This document shows positions 7,422-58,056 of a stretch of 64,000 nt of DNA, piece by piece. The notes beneath the pieces were generated by a model. That model was given only the letters and a program-made list of their open reading frames with translations, did not search any database and was not told where the DNA came from. Positions within the stretch are counted from its first letter, which is position 1. Each line of letters starts with the position of its first letter. The translations under genes and the position numbers were made by a program. Origin of the DNA: Magnetococcales bacterium (GTDB taxonomy: Bacteria > Pseudomonadota > Magnetococcia > Magnetococcales > JADFZT01); NCBI GenBank assembly GCA_015232395.1, contig JADFZT010000001.1:87744-151743 (forward strand), given 5' to 3'.

Positions 7422-7664
7422 TATAGCCATTCGAATCAAGAATTGGACATATGCCGTTGCCCTTTTTTCGTCATTCCCGCGAAGGCGGGAATCCAGGGCA
7501 TCTGGCACGAAACATTCCAAATCTTGCTTCACTTTCAGCAAAACACCGGCCTTGCTGAAGATTTGGTTTTTCCTTAGAGAGCCATAATTATCTCTCTGGA
7601 TCCCCGCCTTCGCGGGGATGACGAATCAGAGAAGAGTGTCCAACTCTGAGGTAGACTTACGGCA
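7422..7664 (+). repeat. Family A MITE-like repeat, copy 1
   Basis: It begins TATAGCCATTC and ends near TGTCCAACTCTGAGG, where the right terminal repeat is more degenerate than in other copies. Inside are the palindromes ATTCCCGCGAAGGCGGGAAT and CCCCGCCTTCGCGGGG. It fills the gap between ugd and the phosphomannomutase gene and ends about 37 bp before that start, so it lies within or just upstream of the promoter region. Confidence 0.85.
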
Positions 7665-11231: not shown

Positions 11232-11473
11232 TATAGCAACTCCAATCCAGAATTGGACATATGCCGTTACTCTTTTGCTGTCATTCCCGCGAATGCGGGA
11301 ATCCAGAGTGTCTGGCACGAACCTTTCCAAATCTTGCTTCACTTTCAGAGAAACACTGGCCTTTCTTGAAGATTTGGCTTTTCCTTAAGGGCAATCATCA
11401 CTCCCTGGATCCCCGCCTTCGCGGGGATGACGAGTCAGGGAAGAATGTCCAATTTTGAGATAGAACTGCTATA
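11232..11473 (+). repeat. Family A MITE-like repeat, copy 2 (nested in family B)
   Basis: Left end TATAGCAACTCCAATCCAG, right end reading CTCAAAATTGGACA on the other strand and finishing in GCTATA. It contains ATTCCCGCGAATGCGGGAAT, which matches the ATTCCC-N8-GGGAAT form of the neisserial dRS3 repeat, and CCCCGCCTTCGCGGGG. An inner pair (CCAAATCTTG / GAAGATTTGG) makes the whole element one nested inverted repeat. It interrupts a family B element. Confidence 0.9.
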
Positions 11474-29064: not shown

Positions 29065-29351
29065 TATAGCCATTCAAATCAAGAATTGGACATATGCCGT
29101 TGCATTTTTGCCGTCATTCTCGCGAATGCGGGAATCCAGGGAGTCTGGCGCAAACCTTTCCAAATCTTGCATCACTTTCAGCAAAATACCGGCCTTTTTT
29201 CAGCAAAATACCGGCCTTTTTTCAGCAAAATACCGGCCTTTCTTAAAAATTTGGTTTTTCCTTGAGGGCAATCATCAGCTCCCTGGATCCCCGCCTTCGC
29301 GGGGATGACGCGTCAGGGAAGAGTGTCCAATTTTGAGATAGAACTGCTATA
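29065..29351 (+). repeat. Family A MITE-like repeat, copy 3
   Basis: TATAGCCATTCAAATCAAG opens the element and AGATAGAACTGCTATA closes it; both palindromes are present. Its centre carries three tandem copies of a 22-bp unit (TTCAGCAAAATACCGGCCTT plus two T), which enlarges it by 44 bp compared with copy 2. Confidence 0.9.
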
Positions 29352-29377
29352 TCAGGCAAGGGAGGAGCGCCCCCGCA

Positions 29378-30658
29378 TCAAAAAACACGCCCCTGCCGAT
29401 CCAGCTGACGATAACACTCCAGCCACTCGATGCTCTCCCGGGAGATCACAGCCTCTTGGGGTTCCAGCCACTGCCAGAGGGTGGCGGCGCCCTCACTCAC
29501 CGGCACAGCACCATAAGCTTCGGTCACAAAGCGGATCCACTTGAAGATCCAAAAAGCGTTACACCACTGAAAAAAGCGCTTGCGAAAAGTCCCTTCCGAA
29601 GAGGTCGCTCCCTGCATCTCCTTGAGATTTCCCCCAAAGTCCACCCCGTCCAGATAGTCCTGCAAGGTGGGGGATATCCACGTCGGGTCGATCATTTCCC
29701 GCCCTTGAAACACCTCTTCCATCCCCTGAAAAAAATCCCGCAGTGCCAAAAAGCCCCGGGGATCGTTCACCGGCCAAAAGCCAACCCCATCCCGCCAGTC
29801 GGACATCGCCCGCCCAGTGCCGAAAGGTACCCGGTGGGAGCGGCGGGGAGAGGGATAAACGCACCCCGCTCGTAGATCGGTAAAGCCCCCCAAGGGAATG
29901 ATCTTTTGCAAAAAATAAAAATCCTCCCCCCCTTGCCGCCGATTCATCCCCCCCTGCTTGGCATAGGCCCAGGCCCGCACCGCCATGGAAGAACCGACGC
30001 TGTGGTGGGCGTGGGGAAACCCGGCAAAACGCAACCCCCAGACATAATATCGCAGATAAAGCTCATACTGGATGATCCCTTCCCGCTCATGGCCGGAAAT
30101 CTCCTCCAGGGGGTGTTCAAAGTGGATGGCGCAGCCGGGAGAAAGCGCATGCTGGTGAAAATGGTCGTGGAGGGAAACGAGATAATTATCTGAAACTGTA
30201 CAGTCGGCATCCAGGCAGACCATCACCCCCTGGGGATTGCCCACCTGGTGAAACCGAACCACCGCTTCATCCAGGCCGATCTTACGAGCAAACCCCACTC
30301 CGGCGTGTTTTTTGGGAAGATCGGGATAGTGGAGCAGATGAAACCCCAGTCCCCGCTCCCGATGGTTTTCAATCCAGGCCCGAGCCTCCTCCAAGGTCTC
30401 TTGATTCAACCCACGCACCCCTTCGTCATCCGCCTCGGAGCCGTTCACCACCACCAGCACCTCCACCGGAGAGGGTGGGCGATGGCAGCGCCAGAGTGAG
30501 GCCAGGGTGGTTATCAACCCCCTCTCCTCCCGGCAGGGAATCACCACAATCAGCCCCAAACCGGGCTCAGGGGGGAGGGATAGGGCGGGTGGAAAAAGCG
30601 CCCGTTTTTGCAGATAGCTCTGGAGCTGTTGCATCTCCCCGGGAGAAACCTCAATCAC
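29378..30658 (-). CDS. Glycosyltransferase family 2 protein
   Basis: 426 aa. The GTG start at 30658 overlaps the preceding stop as GTGA. The GT-A fold is visible: GLGLIVVIPCREERGLITTL at the start of the domain and the DxD metal/nucleotide motif in MVCLDADCTVS near residue 150. YVWGLRFAGFPHAHHSVGSS and GGEDFYFLQ supply the ED acceptor region. There is no obvious membrane segment. It probably transfers a sugar in glycan or glycoprotein synthesis. It was originally downstream of the TPR gene now split by an IS, so its expression may be affected. Confidence 0.88.
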   Translation of the reverse strand: MIEVSPGEMQQLQSYLQKRALFPPALSLPPEPGLGLIVVIPCREERGLITTLASLWRCHRPPSPVEVLVVVNGSEADDEGVRGLNQETLEEARAWIENHRERGLGFHLLHYPDLPKKHAGVGFARKIGLDEAVVRFHQVGNPQGVMVCLDADCTVSDNYLVSLHDHFHQHALSPGCAIHFEHPLEEISGHEREGIIQYELYLRYYVWGLRFAGFPHAHHSVGSSMAVRAWAYAKQGGMNRRQGGEDFYFLQKIIPLGGFTDLRAGCVYPSPRRSHRVPFGTGRAMSDWRDGVGFWPVNDPRGFLALRDFFQGMEEVFQGREMIDPTWISPTLQDYLDGVDFGGNLKEMQGATSSEGTFRKRFFQWCNAFWIFKWIRFVTEAYGAVPVSEGAATLWQWLEPQEAVISRESIEWLECYRQLDRQGRVF

Positions 30659-31363
30659 AGCGCCACGCCATTGCCAGAGGCCCTTTGCTGGCTCTCCCCC
30701 TGGGAAAAAAGAAAATCCAACCTTTCCGGCATCTCCGGCTGGGTCGCCTCCTGGCTCAACTCAAAATTGTTGTGGGCCATCAGTTTGAGCGGGGTCTCGC
30801 TCTGAAAACCGCCCGACTCAAGCCACAATCGGTATCGCCGGATGTTTTCCCCAATGGCGGAGTGGTTGAAGGAGAGCCCGGCACGGCGGAGATTTTCTTC
30901 AAAAGCGGTCTGATCCTGACGGAAAGCGGCGATGATGGCCAGATAGTTGTATCCAACCCCCGGATGGGGATAGCCCCCCTCAAGGGCGGCATTCACATGG
31001 ACTTCGGCCTGCTCTGGAGAACCCGCCCGCAGCCAAGCCCCAGCCAGATCCATGTGGGCCGCCGGCAATCCCGCCAAACGATCCAAAATGTCCTGATATT
31101 CCGCCACATCGGGATAAAATTGACCGGCATACTCCACAAAACTTTTCATCCACAGTTCAACAATTTTCCACATTCTGCCAGTCACATGATCGACAAACCC
31201 ATAGTCTGACCCGACAAAATCATGGGCAAAGAAGAGATTGCCATCGAGATTTTTTTCCTGTTTGAAAAGGTCAAACTCTTCGGCTCCCGGATAATATTGT
31301 AGCTGGGAAAAGAGAAACTGCGCGGGTTGGGTATCGTGGATCAACTGGATACTCTCCTGGAAG
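30655..31363 (-). pseudogene. 3' part of an IS-interrupted gene
   Basis: About 235 residues remain after the IS boundary (SFQESIQLIHDTQPAQFLFS onward). They include a region with TPR-like helices (AGAWLRAGSPEQAEVHVNAA) and a segment resembling proteins of glycan clusters. The reading frame stays open into the IS but the first 28 residues there are IS sequence. Removing the IS and one CTAG copy joins it to the 5' part at 32165, but in a different frame, so a deletion or indel has also occurred. It may still be translated from an internal start. Confidence 0.6.
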
Positions 31364-32168
31364 CTAGGATGTGTTAATACTATTTGGCGAGTCGAAGACC
31401 AGAGCGAAATGGATGAAGAAAGAGTAAACCACGTCGAGCCTGTCAAAGCGTGAAAAGATTCTTCGGAACCCTTTCAATCGTCGAAACAGTCTCTCCATCT
31501 CATTGCTTTTCTTCTACATTTCTCGGTCATATCCCCATGGATTCAGCTGGTTGCTTTTTGGGGGAACCACAGGTTCTAACCCCAGGTCCAATACCAACTG
31601 GCGCATTTCATTTCCTTCATATGCGCGATCCATAACAACGTATTTTGCTGTCAGAGACGTTGTTTTCAGCAATTCCCGACCTTCCGGTGTATCGTGAGCA
31701 TTTCCTGGTGACAGAAAAAAGCTCACTGCTGTTCGAGCATCTGCGGCAACCAAATGAATCTTGGTGGCCCAGCCACCTCTGGATTTTCCGATGGCTTGGG
31801 GGCCGTTTTTTTTAACGCTCCAGTTCCGTCAGGGTGAACCTTTACAATCGTGCTGTCCAACGACACGGACTCAACCCGAACTCGAATGATTTGTTGGCAC
31901 TGAAGCTCAGCAAAAACACGCTCTAAAACACCGCTTTTAGCCCACCTGTTCATTCGTGTATAGATGGTGTGCCAATTACCGAATCTTTCCGGCAATCCAC
32001 GCCATTTGCAGCCATGCTCAGCGACATACAAAATGGCATTGATGATCTGTAGGTTGGTCAGTGAAACATTGCCCCTCTGACGCGGGAAAAGGGACTCGAT
32101 TTTTTTGAACTGCGCTTCGGGAATGTCCATGTGCACAGTATCTCATGTTTTGTGTTAACAAGCCCTAG
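31364..32168 (-). mobile_element. IS5-group insertion sequence with CTAG target duplication
   Basis: A 797-bp element (31368-32164) is flanked by CTAG at 31364-31367 and 32165-32168. The terminal inverted repeats are GATGTGTTAATAC and GGCTTGTTAACAC (9 of 13 match). A 4-bp CTAG duplication is typical of the IS5 group. It carries one transposase gene in two overlapping frames on the minus strand. It interrupts a TPR gene. Confidence 0.9.
31514..32130 (-). pseudogene. IS5-family transposase, frameshift-type with premature stop
   Basis: Frame 1 starts at ATG 32130 (MDIPEAQFKKIESLFPRQRG) and holds the first catalytic Asp (SLDSTIVKVH). An A8 run at 31806-31813 provides an A-AAA-AAA slippery site, after which the -1 frame continues QAIGKSRGGWATKIHLVAAD with the second Asp (VMDRAYEGNEMR). 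That frame then hits TAG at 31514-31516, where relatives have Tyr (YDREx-Y-KKxNExERLF). The third catalytic Glu and the rest (ERLFRRLKGFRRIFSRFDRL) follow untranslated. The copy should be inactive without suppression. Confidence 0.85.
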
Positions 32169-32669
32169 ATCCATCAACACAAAACCCAGATGTCGCAAGA
32201 CTCCAGGGTCGTCGGGTTTGATGGAGAGGGCTTTTTGCAGCATGCCAGCAGCTTGATCGGGTTGGCTCTCTTTTCTGAGGGCGATCCCGAGCTTTTTTAG
32301 GGCGGCTGGATGGTCTGGTTTCAGGTTTAAGGCTTGGCGATAGGCGGCAAGAGCCCCTGGTATATTATTTTTTTGGCTCAGGGCATTGCCCAGGCTCATG
32401 TGGCCCTGAAAATAGCCCGGCTGGCTGGCAACCGCCTTTTGGAAACAGACAATGGCCTGATCCAGCTGGCCTCCCTGCTGATAAATCCCCCCCGCGTTGC
32501 AGAGGGCCACCCCATGACCCGGTTCGATTTTCAGAACCTTTTGATACCACTGCAACGCCTCTTGCAGCTGACCTGCCTGGTGGAGGGCGATCCCTTTTTG
32601 CAAGGCGGCACGCGCCTGGGGGTCGATCTGGTTAACTGCAGATTTTGAATCGTCAGCCTGTTGAGACAT
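32165..32669 (-). pseudogene. 5' part of an IS-interrupted TPR gene
   Basis: About 168 residues from ATG 32669 (AGGTAAC upstream). Clean TPR units follow a polar leader: GIALHQAGQLQEALQWYQKV, GGIYQQGGQLDQAIVCFQKA, ALSQKNNIPGALAAYRQALN and KESQPDQAAGMLQKALSIKP. The frame enters the IS after LMDLG. Such TPR arrays often precede a glycosyltransferase or sulfotransferase domain. The C-terminal remnant at 30655-31363 does not restore frame. Confidence 0.75.
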
Positions 32670-33095
32670 GTCGTTACCTGTTTCCGACCCGAATTCCTTG
32701 AGGCTGGGTATATTCATCCCAAACCTGGATCGGACAGTTGAGCAAGACCCCACAAACCGTATGGGCCATACGAAAATCCGGTAGAACCAAGGAATCCAAG
32801 CATATGGATTTTGGTGGGAAATGAAAACGAAACCCAATCACATTGAGACCGCAACAGGTCATTTTTACACAAACCTGCTACAAAAGAAGAAAGCCTTGGG
32901 AGGTTTGGCTGCAAGCAAAAAAATCTCGCATTTCATCTCCTTTCGAACTTAATATGGTGGAAATGAAGCTCTTTTTTTTCAGGGATTTTGGGGTAGGAGA
33001 GTTCCCGATTCGGACCTTTTCCCAAGCCATCCCGAAGCGGATTGAAGCAGGCACTCCGATTTACCTTCACCATCTGGCTGTCAGCGGGGAAAGAG
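32670..33095. other. Intergenic region upstream of the ATPase/PIN module
   Basis: No supported gene in 426 bp. It holds the divergent control regions of the broken TPR gene and the AAA ATPase. An AT-rich stretch around 32930-32985 (includes TTAATATGG) is the most promoter-like part. Confidence 0.4.
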
Positions 33096-34388
33096 ATGCA
33101 CCGTTTCATTGATTTCAAGGGATTTGCCGATGCCCAATTGGATCTATCCAATCCCGTCACCCTCCTGATCGGCAAAAATGGCTCCGGCAAGAGCAATGTG
33201 ATCGAAGGGGTAGAACTATTCGCCAATTTGGCCCACGGGCTGCCCCTGCATGACATCACCGATCTTGGGCGGGGCGGACCTCAAACATTTCAAATCCGAG
33301 GAGGGTTGCCGGGATGTCCTCGCCTAGAAAAAAAAGCCTTTGAACTGCAGTATTCTAGCTGGACTTACTTTGACGGAGATGCAGAAGGAATCATTTACTC
33401 AATAAAATTTCAAAGAAATAACAATCCAAAAATTTCAGAAGAAATCCTAAAGATAGGAAGTCGGACCCTTTTTTCTGCTCAATCAAAAAAAGGACAGCCC
33501 GACGTCCTATCTGTCCAGTATGACAATTTTGCCCGTGGCGGCAACAAACCATCAGCTTTACTGCCGGCTGATCGCGCCATTTTATCCCGTTATTCTGAAT
33601 TAACTGCACATCTTGACCAAAGAAGCGAAAGACATCAAGACGCACGGAGAGCTGTTATTGACATCCAGAAATATTTGCGTGCTTCCTTTGTCTTTGATCC
33701 AAACCCCCGAGCCATGCGTGAATATGAGCGTCAGGGCCAAAAAATACTGGCGAGGGACGGCTCCAACCTTTCCTCGGTGCTCTACAGCCTCTCCCAGGGT
33801 AACGGAAATGAAAAGAAAACAATTTCCCGTATCTTGGATCAAATCCAGCAGTTGCCAGAAGAACCCTTCGAAGAGATCCGCTTCGTCACCACAGCCCAAC
33901 ACGATGTCCTTTTTGGCTTGGGGGATAAAGGTGAAGGTCCGTTCATGGATGCCCGGGTTCTCTCCGATGGAACCTTGCGCTGCCTTGCTGTATTGACGGC
34001 TCTGGAGACAGTCAAGGAGAGCTCTCGGATCGTGGTAGAAGAGTTCGACAACGGGCTCCACCCTTCTCGGGTAGGCGTCCTCACCGATGCCATTTGGGAG
34101 ACCTGCAAGCGGCGCAATCTCAACATTCTGGTCACCACCCACAACCCCGCCACCCTGGACGCCTTGAACGATGAACAGCTCAAGGGTGTAGTGCTCTGCT
34201 ATCACGATCAAAAGCAAAAAGCCTCCAAGCTTCTTCCTCTCCATAAGCTACCCCTATCCGATGTCTGGCTGGAAGAGGGGCAGCTGGGTAATCTGGTCAC
34301 CCAACGCCTCATCGAAAAATATCTGGATCCGGATTATGAGGAAAAGCGGCAAAAAATCGCCACAGAATGGCTCGCAGATCTGGCATGA
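33096..34388 (+). CDS. AAA family ATPase (AAA_21/OLD-like ABC-type)
   Basis: 430 aa from ATG 33096 (MHRFIDFKGF). The start fits the family, in which a DF-x-NF-like strand precedes Walker A, here GKNGSGKSN at residues 26-34. A signature-like LSDGTLRCLAVLTAL lies near residue 290, an extended Walker B VVEEFDNGLHPSR near 314, and the H-switch TTHNPATLDAL near 350. This single-polypeptide, SMC/ABC-like architecture is shared by OLD nucleases and by ATPase subunits of several phage-defence systems (Septu, PARIS, RloA). It lacks a fused nuclease. Its stop overlaps the PIN gene by 4 bp, so the two proteins are surely made together. Confidence 0.9.
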   Translation: MHRFIDFKGFADAQLDLSNPVTLLIGKNGSGKSNVIEGVELFANLAHGLPLHDITDLGRGGPQTFQIRGGLPGCPRLEKKAFELQYSSWTYFDGDAEGIIYSIKFQRNNNPKISEEILKIGSRTLFSAQSKKGQPDVLSVQYDNFARGGNKPSALLPADRAILSRYSELTAHLDQRSERHQDARRAVIDIQKYLRASFVFDPNPRAMREYERQGQKILARDGSNLSSVLYSLSQGNGNEKKTISRILDQIQQLPEEPFEEIRFVTTAQHDVLFGLGDKGEGPFMDARVLSDGTLRCLAVLTALETVKESSRIVVEEFDNGLHPSRVGVLTDAIWETCKRRNLNILVTTHNPATLDALNDEQLKGVVLCYHDQKQKASKLLPLHKLPLSDVWLEEGQLGNLVTQRLIEKYLDPDYEEKRQKIATEWLADLA

Positions 34389-34906
34389 AGGGGCCTCTCT
34401 ACATCGTCGATACCGGCTATCTGCTGGAAGAGTATCGGATTCCGGGCCATTTTAATGATACCGCCCATGGGAAAATCAACCGACGTTTTGCCGACGCCAT
34501 CCAAACCCATCTGCGCCTCTATGTGCCTTTTCCGGTCCTGTTCGAACTGGCCAACCATATTGCTGGCATCCAGAATGGCGATGTGCGGAGAAAACAGGCC
34601 AAAAAGCTGGCCAAAGCGGTGGAAACCAGCATCGTCGATGCCTCCCCCTGGATCATCACCCCTCTGAAAGATCGAAATATTCTGCTCGCGTTTGAAAAAT
34701 ATCTCCAGGACATATCCCATGGCTTCGCAACAGAATTTGCAATCCAGGGAATCGGCTGGGTGGATATCTCCGTCATCTCCGAAGCCAAACGATTAAAGGC
34801 CAAATCCAACAACCTTCACACCATTCACATCTGGACCACCGACGATCAGGTAAAAAGCCGCGAGCCAGACCCGGAGCCCAATCCTTATCTGGGAGAGCGG
34901 AAATAA
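34385..34906 (+). CDS. PIN-like nuclease candidate partnered with AAA ATPase
   Basis: 173 aa, start ATG 34385 within an ATGA overlap. The acidic pattern of PIN domains is present: Asp9 (YIVDTGYLLEEY), Glu54 (PFPVLFELANHI), Asp127 (GWVDISVISEAKRL) and Asp153/154 (IWTTDDQ). This matches metal-dependent RNases such as VapC. The tight coupling to the ATPase suggests the ATPase senses or powers and the PIN protein cuts. A short Pro/Glu-rich tail follows. No antitoxin-like gene precedes it. Function as a defence effector is inference. Confidence 0.75.
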   Translation: MKGPLYIVDTGYLLEEYRIPGHFNDTAHGKINRRFADAIQTHLRLYVPFPVLFELANHIAGIQNGDVRRKQAKKLAKAVETSIVDASPWIITPLKDRNILLAFEKYLQDISHGFATEFAIQGIGWVDISVISEAKRLKAKSNNLHTIHIWTTDDQVKSREPDPEPNPYLGERK

Positions 34907-34942
34907 AAAAACGTGGTGTTGGGAGCAAAAACCAAAACCGCT

Positions 34943-35431
34943 TTATTGAAGGGAAAGCTCCAAACGCCTGCTCTCAAGCTGATGGTTCAGCCGCCAAGCC
35001 GATTTGGCTGTTTCGACGATATTTGGGGCAAAGGGTTTTTTCCTCTTTTTGGTCTCGTACCATCTGATTACCTGATAGAGATGCCAATAAGGTTTTGCCC
35101 CGGTGATGATGGGTGGGGGGAATCCAGCCAGTTTTCGGAGGTTTTGCCTGGATTGGCCAACGAGCTTGGCAATGTCGGCGATGGATACCAGATCCGGCCT
35201 GACTTCAATCAATTCAGCATCCGGAAACGCCTTAAAAAAATCGTTGATGGCCGAGTTGATCGCTTCCTCGGCGGAAATGGACTCCCTGAAAAGATCCAGC
35301 CCAACGATACCCTTGATACCGGTCAAAACCAGGGCATCATCCAGCCCGGCATCAAAAAGCCTGTTGGAAATTTCGTCAACATCCTGTTTTTGATCCTGGA
35401 TTGAAAAGACGACGGTAAATTCAAAGATCAT
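34943..35431 (-). CDS. HTH-containing protein, probable partner of the HicA-like gene
   Basis: 162 aa, overlapping the upstream small gene by 4 bp (ATGA). The N-terminal 75 residues resemble a compact alpha/beta fold (MIFEFTVVFSI, DEISNRLFDAGLDDALVL, RESISAEEAINSAINDFFKA). Residues 82-102 are a clear helix-turn-helix (VSIADIAKLVGQSRQNLRKL), followed by a wing-like FPPPIITGAKPYWHLYQVI. The same architecture recurs next to small HicA-like proteins in many bacteria in my recollection. I infer an antitoxin/autoregulator. Confidence 0.75.
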   Translation of the reverse strand: MIFEFTVVFSIQDQKQDVDEISNRLFDAGLDDALVLTGIKGIVGLDLFRESISAEEAINSAINDFFKAFPDAELIEVRPDLVSIADIAKLVGQSRQNLRKLAGFPPPIITGAKPYWHLYQVIRWYETKKRKKPFAPNIVETAKSAWRLNHQLESRRLELSLQ

Positions 35432-35679
35432 CGCTCATCCTCCGGTCCACGACAGCCATCAACGATCTGCCTGATTCTTTTGGCGTGGGCTTCTGGATTT
35501 CTGGGTGTTGAATAGACCCCTATCTGACAATAGAGCCCCCCTCGGCACCCCCCAGTGGTCGGAAAGGACAATCTCCCATAAGAGTGGCCTTTCCTCACCT
35601 TCCTGAACCCCCAGCCGTTGTCGACAGCGTATTGGATCTCTGCATCGATTTCCTTGTGGGGATGGGACTTTCTACCCAT
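35428..35679 (-). CDS. Small HicA-like protein, putative toxin
   Basis: 83 aa. It begins MGRKSHPHKEIDAEIQYAVD and continues NGWGFRKVRKGHSYGRLSF, a beta-hairpin with a conserved His as in HicA-type dsRNA-binding-fold mRNases. It ends YSTPRNPEAHAKRIRQIVDG, a helix rich in basic residues. Two Cys flank a Gly-rich loop (GGCRGGLYC), unlike classic HicA. It is the first gene of a two-gene unit with the HTH protein. Toxin activity is inferred from fold resemblance and context only. Confidence 0.65.
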   Translation of the reverse strand: MGRKSHPHKEIDAEIQYAVDNGWGFRKVRKGHSYGRLSFPTTGGCRGGLYCQIGVYSTPRNPEAHAKRIRQIVDGCRGPEDER

Positions 35680-35689
35680 GGGATAAGCC

Positions 35690-35994
35690 TATAGCAATTC
35701 AAATCAAAAATTGGACATATGCCGCTGTACTTTTTCTGTCATTCCCGCGAATGCGGGAATCCAGGGGGGGTGGTGCAAACCTTTCCTAAATCTTGCCTCA
35801 CTTTCAGCAAAACACTGGATTTTCTTGAAGATTTGGTTTTTCCTTGAGGGCAATCGTCAGCTCCCTGGATCCCCGCCTTCGCGGGGATGACGGCCGTAGC
35901 TGTCCCACCCCGCCCCGATCCCAGCCTGGATCCCCGCCTTCGCGGGGATGACGAGTCAGGGAAGAGTGTTCAATTTTGAGATAGAACTGCTATA
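35690..35994 (+). repeat. Family A MITE-like repeat, copy 4
   Basis: From TATAGCAATTCAAATC to AGATAGAACTGCTATA. It has a second copy of the right palindrome (CTGGATCCCCGCCTTCGCGG at 35865 and again at 35936, 71 bp apart) with a different spacer, making it longer than copy 2. It starts 10 bp upstream of the HicA-like gene, so that gene's promoter must lie inside or beyond the repeat. Confidence 0.9.
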
Positions 35995-57689: not shown

Positions 57690-58056
57690 TATAGCAGTTC
57701 TATCTCAAAATTGGACACTCTTCCCTGACTCGTCATCCCCGCGAAGGCGGGGATCCAGGGGACGATCCGCTCAAGCCGGGAAAGGGCAAGCCCGTCATCC
57801 CCGCGAAGGCGGGGATCCAGGGGACGATCCGCTCAAACCGGGAAAGGGCAAGCCCGTCATCCCCGCGAAGGCGGGGATCCAGGGAGTTGATGGTTGCCCT
57901 CAAGGAAAAACCAAATCTTCAAGAAAGGCCGGTATTTTGCTGAAAGTGATGCAAGATTTGGAAAGGTTTGCGCCAAACTCCCTGGATTCCCGCATTCGCG
58001 AGAATGACGACAAAAATGCAATGGCATATGTCCAATTCTTGATTTGAATGGCTATA
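57690..58056 (-). repeat. Family A MITE-like repeat, copy 5, expanded
   Basis: Reversed relative to the others: TATAGCAGTTCTATCTC at the left and TGAATGGCTATA at the right. The right-end palindrome (CGTCATCCCCGCGAAGGCGG) occurs three times at 57731, 57793 and 57855, an exact 62-bp period with nearly identical 32-bp spacers. This makes it the longest copy (367 bp). Confidence 0.9.

Follow-up and report, generated by a model that had tools for sequence, protein, structure and literature searches.

In a 2026 survey of BREX systems (PMC12839542), OLD-ABC ATPases are described as paired with HNH, PD-(D/E)XK and PIN nucleases, and the OLD-ABC/PIN-endoRNase pairs of BREX-type systems are proposed to be backup suicidal effectors; for pairs of ABC-ATPases and nucleases in R-M-like systems the same survey cites Krishnan et al. 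2020. PIN is also listed, in a 2024 paper on phosphorothioate systems, among the endoRNases found in ABC-ATPase-DndE neighbourhoods (PMC10853773), and in DS-3 and DS-5, two unrelated systems, PIN RNases have been shown to be essential for phage defence (PMC13092281). In PARIS, AriA senses Ocr and activates the tRNA-cutting AriB (PMC12409363 and PMC12839542). PADLOC-DB contains a two-protein phage defence candidate, PDC-M07 (PDC-M07A/PDC-M07B); no paper naming or testing it, nor its original description, was found in the literature searched.

The window analyzed here is a stretch of 64,000 nucleotides from a Magnetococcales bacterium, and the locus under study is a member of this catalogued candidate family, for which a conceptual description has been published; it is not a new kind of system. 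A sequence-only reading of the same DNA had proposed a possible new defence system, as it could name no PIN partner for this ATPase class. Novelty was rejected on the matches of both proteins to PDC-M07A/B in PADLOC-DB and on the OLD-ABC/PIN pairs described in the BREX survey (PMC12839542), and the remark on the partner is outdated, since PIN partners appear in PMC10853773 as well as in PMC12839542. The features of the locus, and of the candidate pair adjoining it, are the following.

33096..34388, plus strand: PDC-M07A, OLD-type ABC ATPase of 430 aa, predicted sensor/switch subunit (AAA_21, PADLOC, AF2, Foldseek)
33171..33194, plus strand: Walker A of the ATPase, residues 26-33, GKNGSGKS (G26, G31, K32 and N34 invariant in 51 homologues)
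33960..33974, plus strand: ABC signature of the ATPase, residues 289-293, LSDGT (S290, D291, G292 and T293 invariant in 51 homologues)
34029..34043, plus strand: Walker B of the ATPase, residues 312-316, ending in E315/E316 (E315 in 51/51, E316 in 50/51)
34385..34906, plus strand: PDC-M07B, PIN-fold nuclease of 173 aa, predicted RNase effector (PADLOC, AF2, Foldseek)
34409..34411, plus strand: codon of the predicted catalytic Asp9 of the PIN gene (D in 61/61 homologues)
34544..34546, plus strand: codon of the predicted catalytic Glu54 of the PIN gene (E in 60/61)
34763..34765, plus strand: codon of the predicted catalytic Asp127 of the PIN gene (D in 60/61)
34841..34843, plus strand: codon of the predicted catalytic Asp153 of the PIN gene (D in 60/61)
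34943..35431, minus strand: PDC-M06B, partner in the adjoining two-gene candidate, context only (PADLOC PDC-M06B, 5.9e-47)
35428..35679, minus strand: PDC-M06A, small protein of the adjoining candidate, context only (PADLOC PDC-M06A, 1.2e-24)

Motifs, conservation, pairing, co-divergence and embedding were established by computation, the folds being predictions. The ATPase ORF has its ATG at 33096 and its stop at 34388, and the PIN ORF its ATG at 34385 and its stop at 34906, so that the two overlap by 4 bp (ATGA). The ATPase is matched by Pfam AAA_21 (E=7.1e-23), and neither a Toprim nor any other nuclease domain was found in it by the Pfam search. In addition to the P-loop, the LSDGT signature and the Walker B motif listed above, an H-loop is present at H349; across 51 homologues the four motifs show little or no variation. 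The AF2 model of the ATPase, folded as a single chain, has a pLDDT of 91.2, and PtuA (from Septu and retrons), Rad50 and SMC heads are the closest folds reported by Foldseek. Among the PADLOC profiles, PDC-M07A, which covers residues 5-429 of 430, is far stronger (E=2.6e-102) than HEC-01A (2e-38) and AriA (4.9e-26). The NCBIfam PtuA model scores 30.6 bits, the cut-off being 500.

The second protein matches PDC-M07B over residues 6-169 of 173 (E=4.9e-53). As a single sequence it gives a Pfam PIN match that is suggestive at most (E=0.14), and 14 of the 61 homologues reach E<=0.01. Nothing useful was obtained by searching the single sequence against PDB sequences and NCBIfam, or its profile against PDB sequences; the PIN identity was settled by fold comparison only. 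The AF2 model, computed on an alignment of 61 sequences for the chain alone, has a pLDDT of 92.5 and a pTM of 0.87. In the Foldseek comparison with PDB, PIN proteins fill the top ranks: the best match is PAE0151 (E=3.5e-4), the only one below 0.001, and it is accompanied by Mycobacterium VapBC, VapC20, FitB and RNA-free RNase P, with a probability of 0.99-1.00 across the top ten, all of one fold. The acidic residues Asp9, Glu54, Asp127 and Asp153 are present all together in 59 of the 61 homologues. According to its model, PDC-M07B is thus a PIN-fold protein with a conserved four-acid site, and an RNase role is predicted for it. One full-length PIN homologue from Magnetococcales (L061:7900-8379) carries E54V and D127S in the alignment, and may possibly be inactive or repurposed.

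Much of this had been anticipated by the sequence-only reading: the coordinates 33096-34906 and the 4-bp overlap are correct, the ATPase is of the OLD/AAA_21 type with no nuclease family matched, and the four acids that it had picked as a complete PIN-type set are those conserved among the homologues. It had named a structure prediction lacking the PIN fold as a reason to abandon the idea; a PIN fold was obtained instead. The profile searches that it had proposed gave AAA_21 for the ATPase and PADLOC matches for both proteins; the single-sequence PIN match was weak.

Homologues were collected in 92 loci (L002-L093) from the window's order, plasmids, 80 genome loci and 3 viral contigs, mostly found through the ATPase. 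In 87 of them, a search with a profile of the PIN protein found its gene beside that of the ATPase; in the reverse count, an ATPase gene adjoined in 13 of 14 loci found through the PIN protein. The adjacency of the two genes is not due to chance. Five loci had no PIN profile match: L027 lies near a contig edge, L069 has hsdR directly after the ATPase gene, and L040, L065 and L078 each have an intact ATPase gene followed directly by the beginning of a PIN gene that then breaks off (L040:2482-2560, L065:11290-11400, L078:11299-11380). Short or frameshifted PIN genes were also found in L034, L038, L041, L056 and L079. That several loci have lost the PIN gene and kept an intact ATPase gene fits a role of the former as a costly effector; as the broken-PIN loci were collected through the ATPase, the opposite case, a broken ATPase gene, would be under-represented. 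Of 87 pairs measured, 73 have overlapping genes, and in 69 the overlap is exactly 1, 4 or 8 nt, with starts estimated by script. Pairwise distances of the two proteins correlate with r=0.84 (80 pairs); none of 2000 permutations exceeded 0.23, and r=0.74 is obtained when close pairs are left out. Since shared descent contributes to this correlation, it backs a stable pair and is not proof of contact.

The genomic surroundings of the homologues were analyzed on 76 loci, obtained by removing near-identical ATPases, and the neighbour families PglX, BrxC, BrxA, type IIG and type I REase were confirmed by PADLOC profiles. In the stretches examined, type I R-M genes were found in 13 of the 76 loci, BREX genes in 4 and a type IIG gene in 1. 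When the count is limited to the loci flanked by 5 kb or more on each side, 41 in number, the figures are 10, 2 and 1 respectively, about one third together. Embedded pairs occupy the gap from hsdS to hsdR or that from brxC to pglX, on the same strand as their neighbours; the resulting gene orders can be summarized as hsdS–A–B–hsdR for type I R-M and brxC–A–B–pglX for BREX, where brxA and brxC are upstream and pglX is downstream wherever the flank is long enough. Homologues of the pair also sit on conjugative and mobilizable plasmids, and the order on the Photobacterium plasmid pAQU1 is hsdM-hsdS-A-B-hsdR. Type I R-M genes are present in 24% of the well-flanked loci, compared with roughly 1-2% of random 21-kb stretches, a rough background estimated from 173 HsdS-domain matches in 61 relatives with usually two domains per HsdS. 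As the gap between hsdS and hsdR is a general recombination and insertion hotspot for unrelated modules (PMC12255303), embedding indicates an association with defence, not a specific link to restriction or a need for it. In the type I R-M cluster of one pair, a protein of 881 aa (L063:4915-7560) matches Ppl, PDC-M49A and mad3; proteins of this group occur at five loci.

No housekeeping neighbour recurs across lineages among the homologue loci. Among 399 genomes of the phylum the pair was found in 12, of which 11 belong to the window's own order. No PDC-M07B was found in phage records, and only 3 viral contigs contain relatives of PDC-M07A. A constant housekeeping setting, which the sequence-only reading had regarded as fatal to its proposal, was not seen, the neighbours being type I R-M, BREX and type IIG genes; the count of co-occurrence with defence genes that it had called for gave R-M, BREX or type IIG genes near about one third of the well-flanked, de-replicated loci. 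Its proposal of a two-gene ATPase/PIN defence module is well supported by the homologue context. As far as sequences can tell, the analysis adds evidence that the PIN version forms a stable, co-diverging pair, occurring on its own as well as inside restriction or BREX operons.

The window copy is one of those standing alone. Its ATPase is 42-52% identical to those of its nearest relatives (42-51% for L011-L018) and 28-35% identical to the rest. No R-M or BREX genes were found near these eight nearest relatives in the stretches examined, some of which are short; L011 has the Menshen-like genes NsnA and NsnC a few genes off, and immediately upstream L017 carries a defence-associated PD-DExK gene and L013 a PDC-S12 match. 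The window pair itself is neither inside nor beside a BREX or R-M operon: only the PADLOC candidate PDC-M06A/B (34943-35679) adjoins it, downstream on the opposite strand, and neither of its two proteins has a Pfam match. Because no match to type I HsdS or to N6_Mtase was found in the window's genome, this copy cannot serve to back up type I restriction, and dependence on a resident type I R-M system was rejected for this genome. The GC content around the pair is 0.48-0.53, compared with mostly 0.55-0.60 outside. A degraded IS4/5-type transposase, split into a DUF4096 part and a DDE part, lies at 31514-32136 and runs into a TPR-repeat gene (32058-32837), and the ordinary chromosomal genes flanking the pair include a serA-like and a thiD-like one, as identified by eye from the translations. 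A MITE-like element with terminal inverted repeats of about 28 bp (TATAGC...TTGGACA) is found at the following positions.

29065-29351 and 35690-35994, direct orientation: MITE copies bounding the islet with the ATPase-PIN pair
near 7422, 11232-11473 and 57690-58056: further MITE copies or ends

The degraded IS, the adjoining pair and the MITE, all taken by the sequence-only reading as the setting of an accessory defence locus, are thus real, but the MITE beside the pair says little, since about 40 copies are present genome-wide. A composite element bounded by the two direct copies (29352-35689) was considered and found unremarkable for the same reason.

Another contig of the same genome (G000:C121:1-9309, locus L114) carries a BREX-type locus with PglXI, cut at the contig end, a BrxHI helicase and PglZ, within which a pair of OLD-ABC ATPase and DUF4276 protein (HEC-01A/B) is found. 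One genome therefore holds a PIN version standing alone and a DUF4276 version embedded in a BREX-type locus.

A defence role of the window pair is likely; since its relatives are often found within anti-phage gene clusters, the pair probably acts as a switch for self-shutdown upon phage attack. The reading preferred here, with a probability of about 0.6, is that of a guard module with two components, acting by abortive infection and belonging to the PDC-M07 candidate family, in which the ATPase would release a PIN RNase upon a phage trigger. It draws on the PIN site, the intact ATP motifs, the ATPase head fold, the gene overlap, the pairing, the co-divergence, the embedding, the patchy presence, the carriage on plasmids, the broken PIN genes and the precedents of PARIS and of the PIN RNases in DS-3 and DS-5. 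Weighing against it are the ability of PIN-like folds to cut DNA, the lack of R-M and BREX genes in the stretches examined around L011-L018, the absence of type I HsdS and N6_Mtase matches from the window's genome, and the hotspot nature of the hsdS-hsdR gap. The OLD-type ABC ATPase would form nucleotide-dependent head-to-head dimers or higher assemblies, and these would hold the PIN nuclease, translated together with the ATPase, in an inactive state. The ATPase would be altered by a trigger from the phage, for which an anti-restriction protein, a DNA mimic or an abnormal state of DNA or nucleotides is most plausible. The ATPase may sense infection or failing restriction. The altered ATPase would free or activate the PIN nuclease, which would cut host tRNA or rRNA, and translation would stop. 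Embedded copies might in this way serve as a reserve behind type I R-M, BREX or type IIG restriction, and free-standing ones, such as that of the window, might act alone. We infer from PARIS and from the PIN fold that the two proteins form a complex, that RNA is cut, what kind of trigger acts and that growth stops. A narrower version, possible but doubtful, would make the pair a PIN-based counterpart of PARIS, with an ATPase that senses phage anti-restriction or DNA-mimic proteins directly and releases a PIN RNase aimed at a particular tRNA or rRNA, and a window subgroup that has become autonomous in cells without type I restriction.

Other explanations account for part of these observations. 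It is unlikely that the pair is a toxin-antitoxin or addiction module, with a VapC-like PIN toxin, the ATPase as an unusual antitoxin or regulator, and maintenance as its main role. The VapC-type fold, the overlapping gene order, the plasmid carriage and the second small two-gene candidate (PDC-M06) next to the pair would suit such a module; yet a small VapB-like partner is missing from the pair, the ATPase is large and has a fully conserved ATP site, insertion within restriction or BREX operons is atypical for modules of this sort, and an ATPase remaining intact after breakage of the PIN gene (L040, L065, L078) does not sit well with a pure antitoxin. A direct anti-phage DNase, in which the ATPase would recognize phage DNA structures (ends, replication forks), in the manner of Rad50/SMC-type heads, and deliver a DNA-cutting PIN protein, is quite unlikely, even if the ATPase model resembles Rad50, SMC and PtuA heads and homologues are associated with DNA-modifying restriction systems. 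In Septu, the partner of PtuA is an HNH DNase, and PIN-like folds can also cut DNA, the RNA substrate being read here from the fold alone. The best PDB matches of PDC-M07B, however, are small PIN RNases (VapC, including the rRNA-cutting VapC20), and PIN defence proteins have so far been treated as RNases (PMC13092281, PMC12839542).

The retention of the catalytic residues in 59 of 61 homologues across phyla, together with the co-divergence of the two genes, shows selection on the pair, and makes it very improbable that this is a selfish passenger of the hsdS-hsdR hotspot and of MITE-rich sites, with no functional link to its neighbours and little benefit to the host, as the use of that gap by unrelated modules (PMC12255303) and the about 40 MITE copies of the window's genome might suggest. 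A housekeeping or repair role, with a RecF/OLD-like repair factor and an RNA-processing partner outside defence, would agree with the ordinary chromosomal flanks (serA-like and thiD-like, by eye) and with a genome without type I R-M, but is hardly probable at all given the patchy presence of the pair, its location on plasmids and within defence operons, the lack of a housekeeping neighbour recurring across lineages, and the broken PIN copies (L040, L065, L078), which show that it is dispensable.

The pair supports a recurring immune design, in which an OLD-type ABC sensor is combined with an interchangeable nuclease (Toprim, HNH, DUF4276 or PIN), and is compact and directly testable. Among known systems, nothing separates the window copy from PDC-M07: both proteins match full length, adjacent, on the same strand and in the same order, and the copy falls in a subgroup that is free-standing in the stretches examined. 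The OLD-ABC/PIN pairs of the BREX survey (PMC12839542) show the same pairing and may be of the same sequence families; unlike those, the window copy is outside a BREX operon. VapBC shares with the window PIN protein the effector fold with its four-acid site, but has a small DNA-binding VapB, whereas the window PIN gene adjoins the gene of a 430-aa ABC ATPase, PDC-M06 being downstream on the other strand. In the PtuA-PtuB pair of Septu and retrons, an ATPase is likewise joined to a separate nuclease and PtuA is the closest solved ATPase fold, but PtuB is an HNH protein and the NCBIfam PtuA score (30.6 bits) is far from the cut-off of 500. HEC-01, matched by the window ATPase (HEC-01A, 2e-38) and present in the BREX-type locus of the same genome, has DUF4276 in place of PIN as partner and is a separate system. 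PARIS is also a two-gene system of OLD-ABC ATPase and nuclease, and the window ATPase matches its AriA profile (4.9e-26), but PDC-M07A far better (2.6e-102); its AriB is a Toprim protein, whereas the window partner is a PIN protein with no AriB match.
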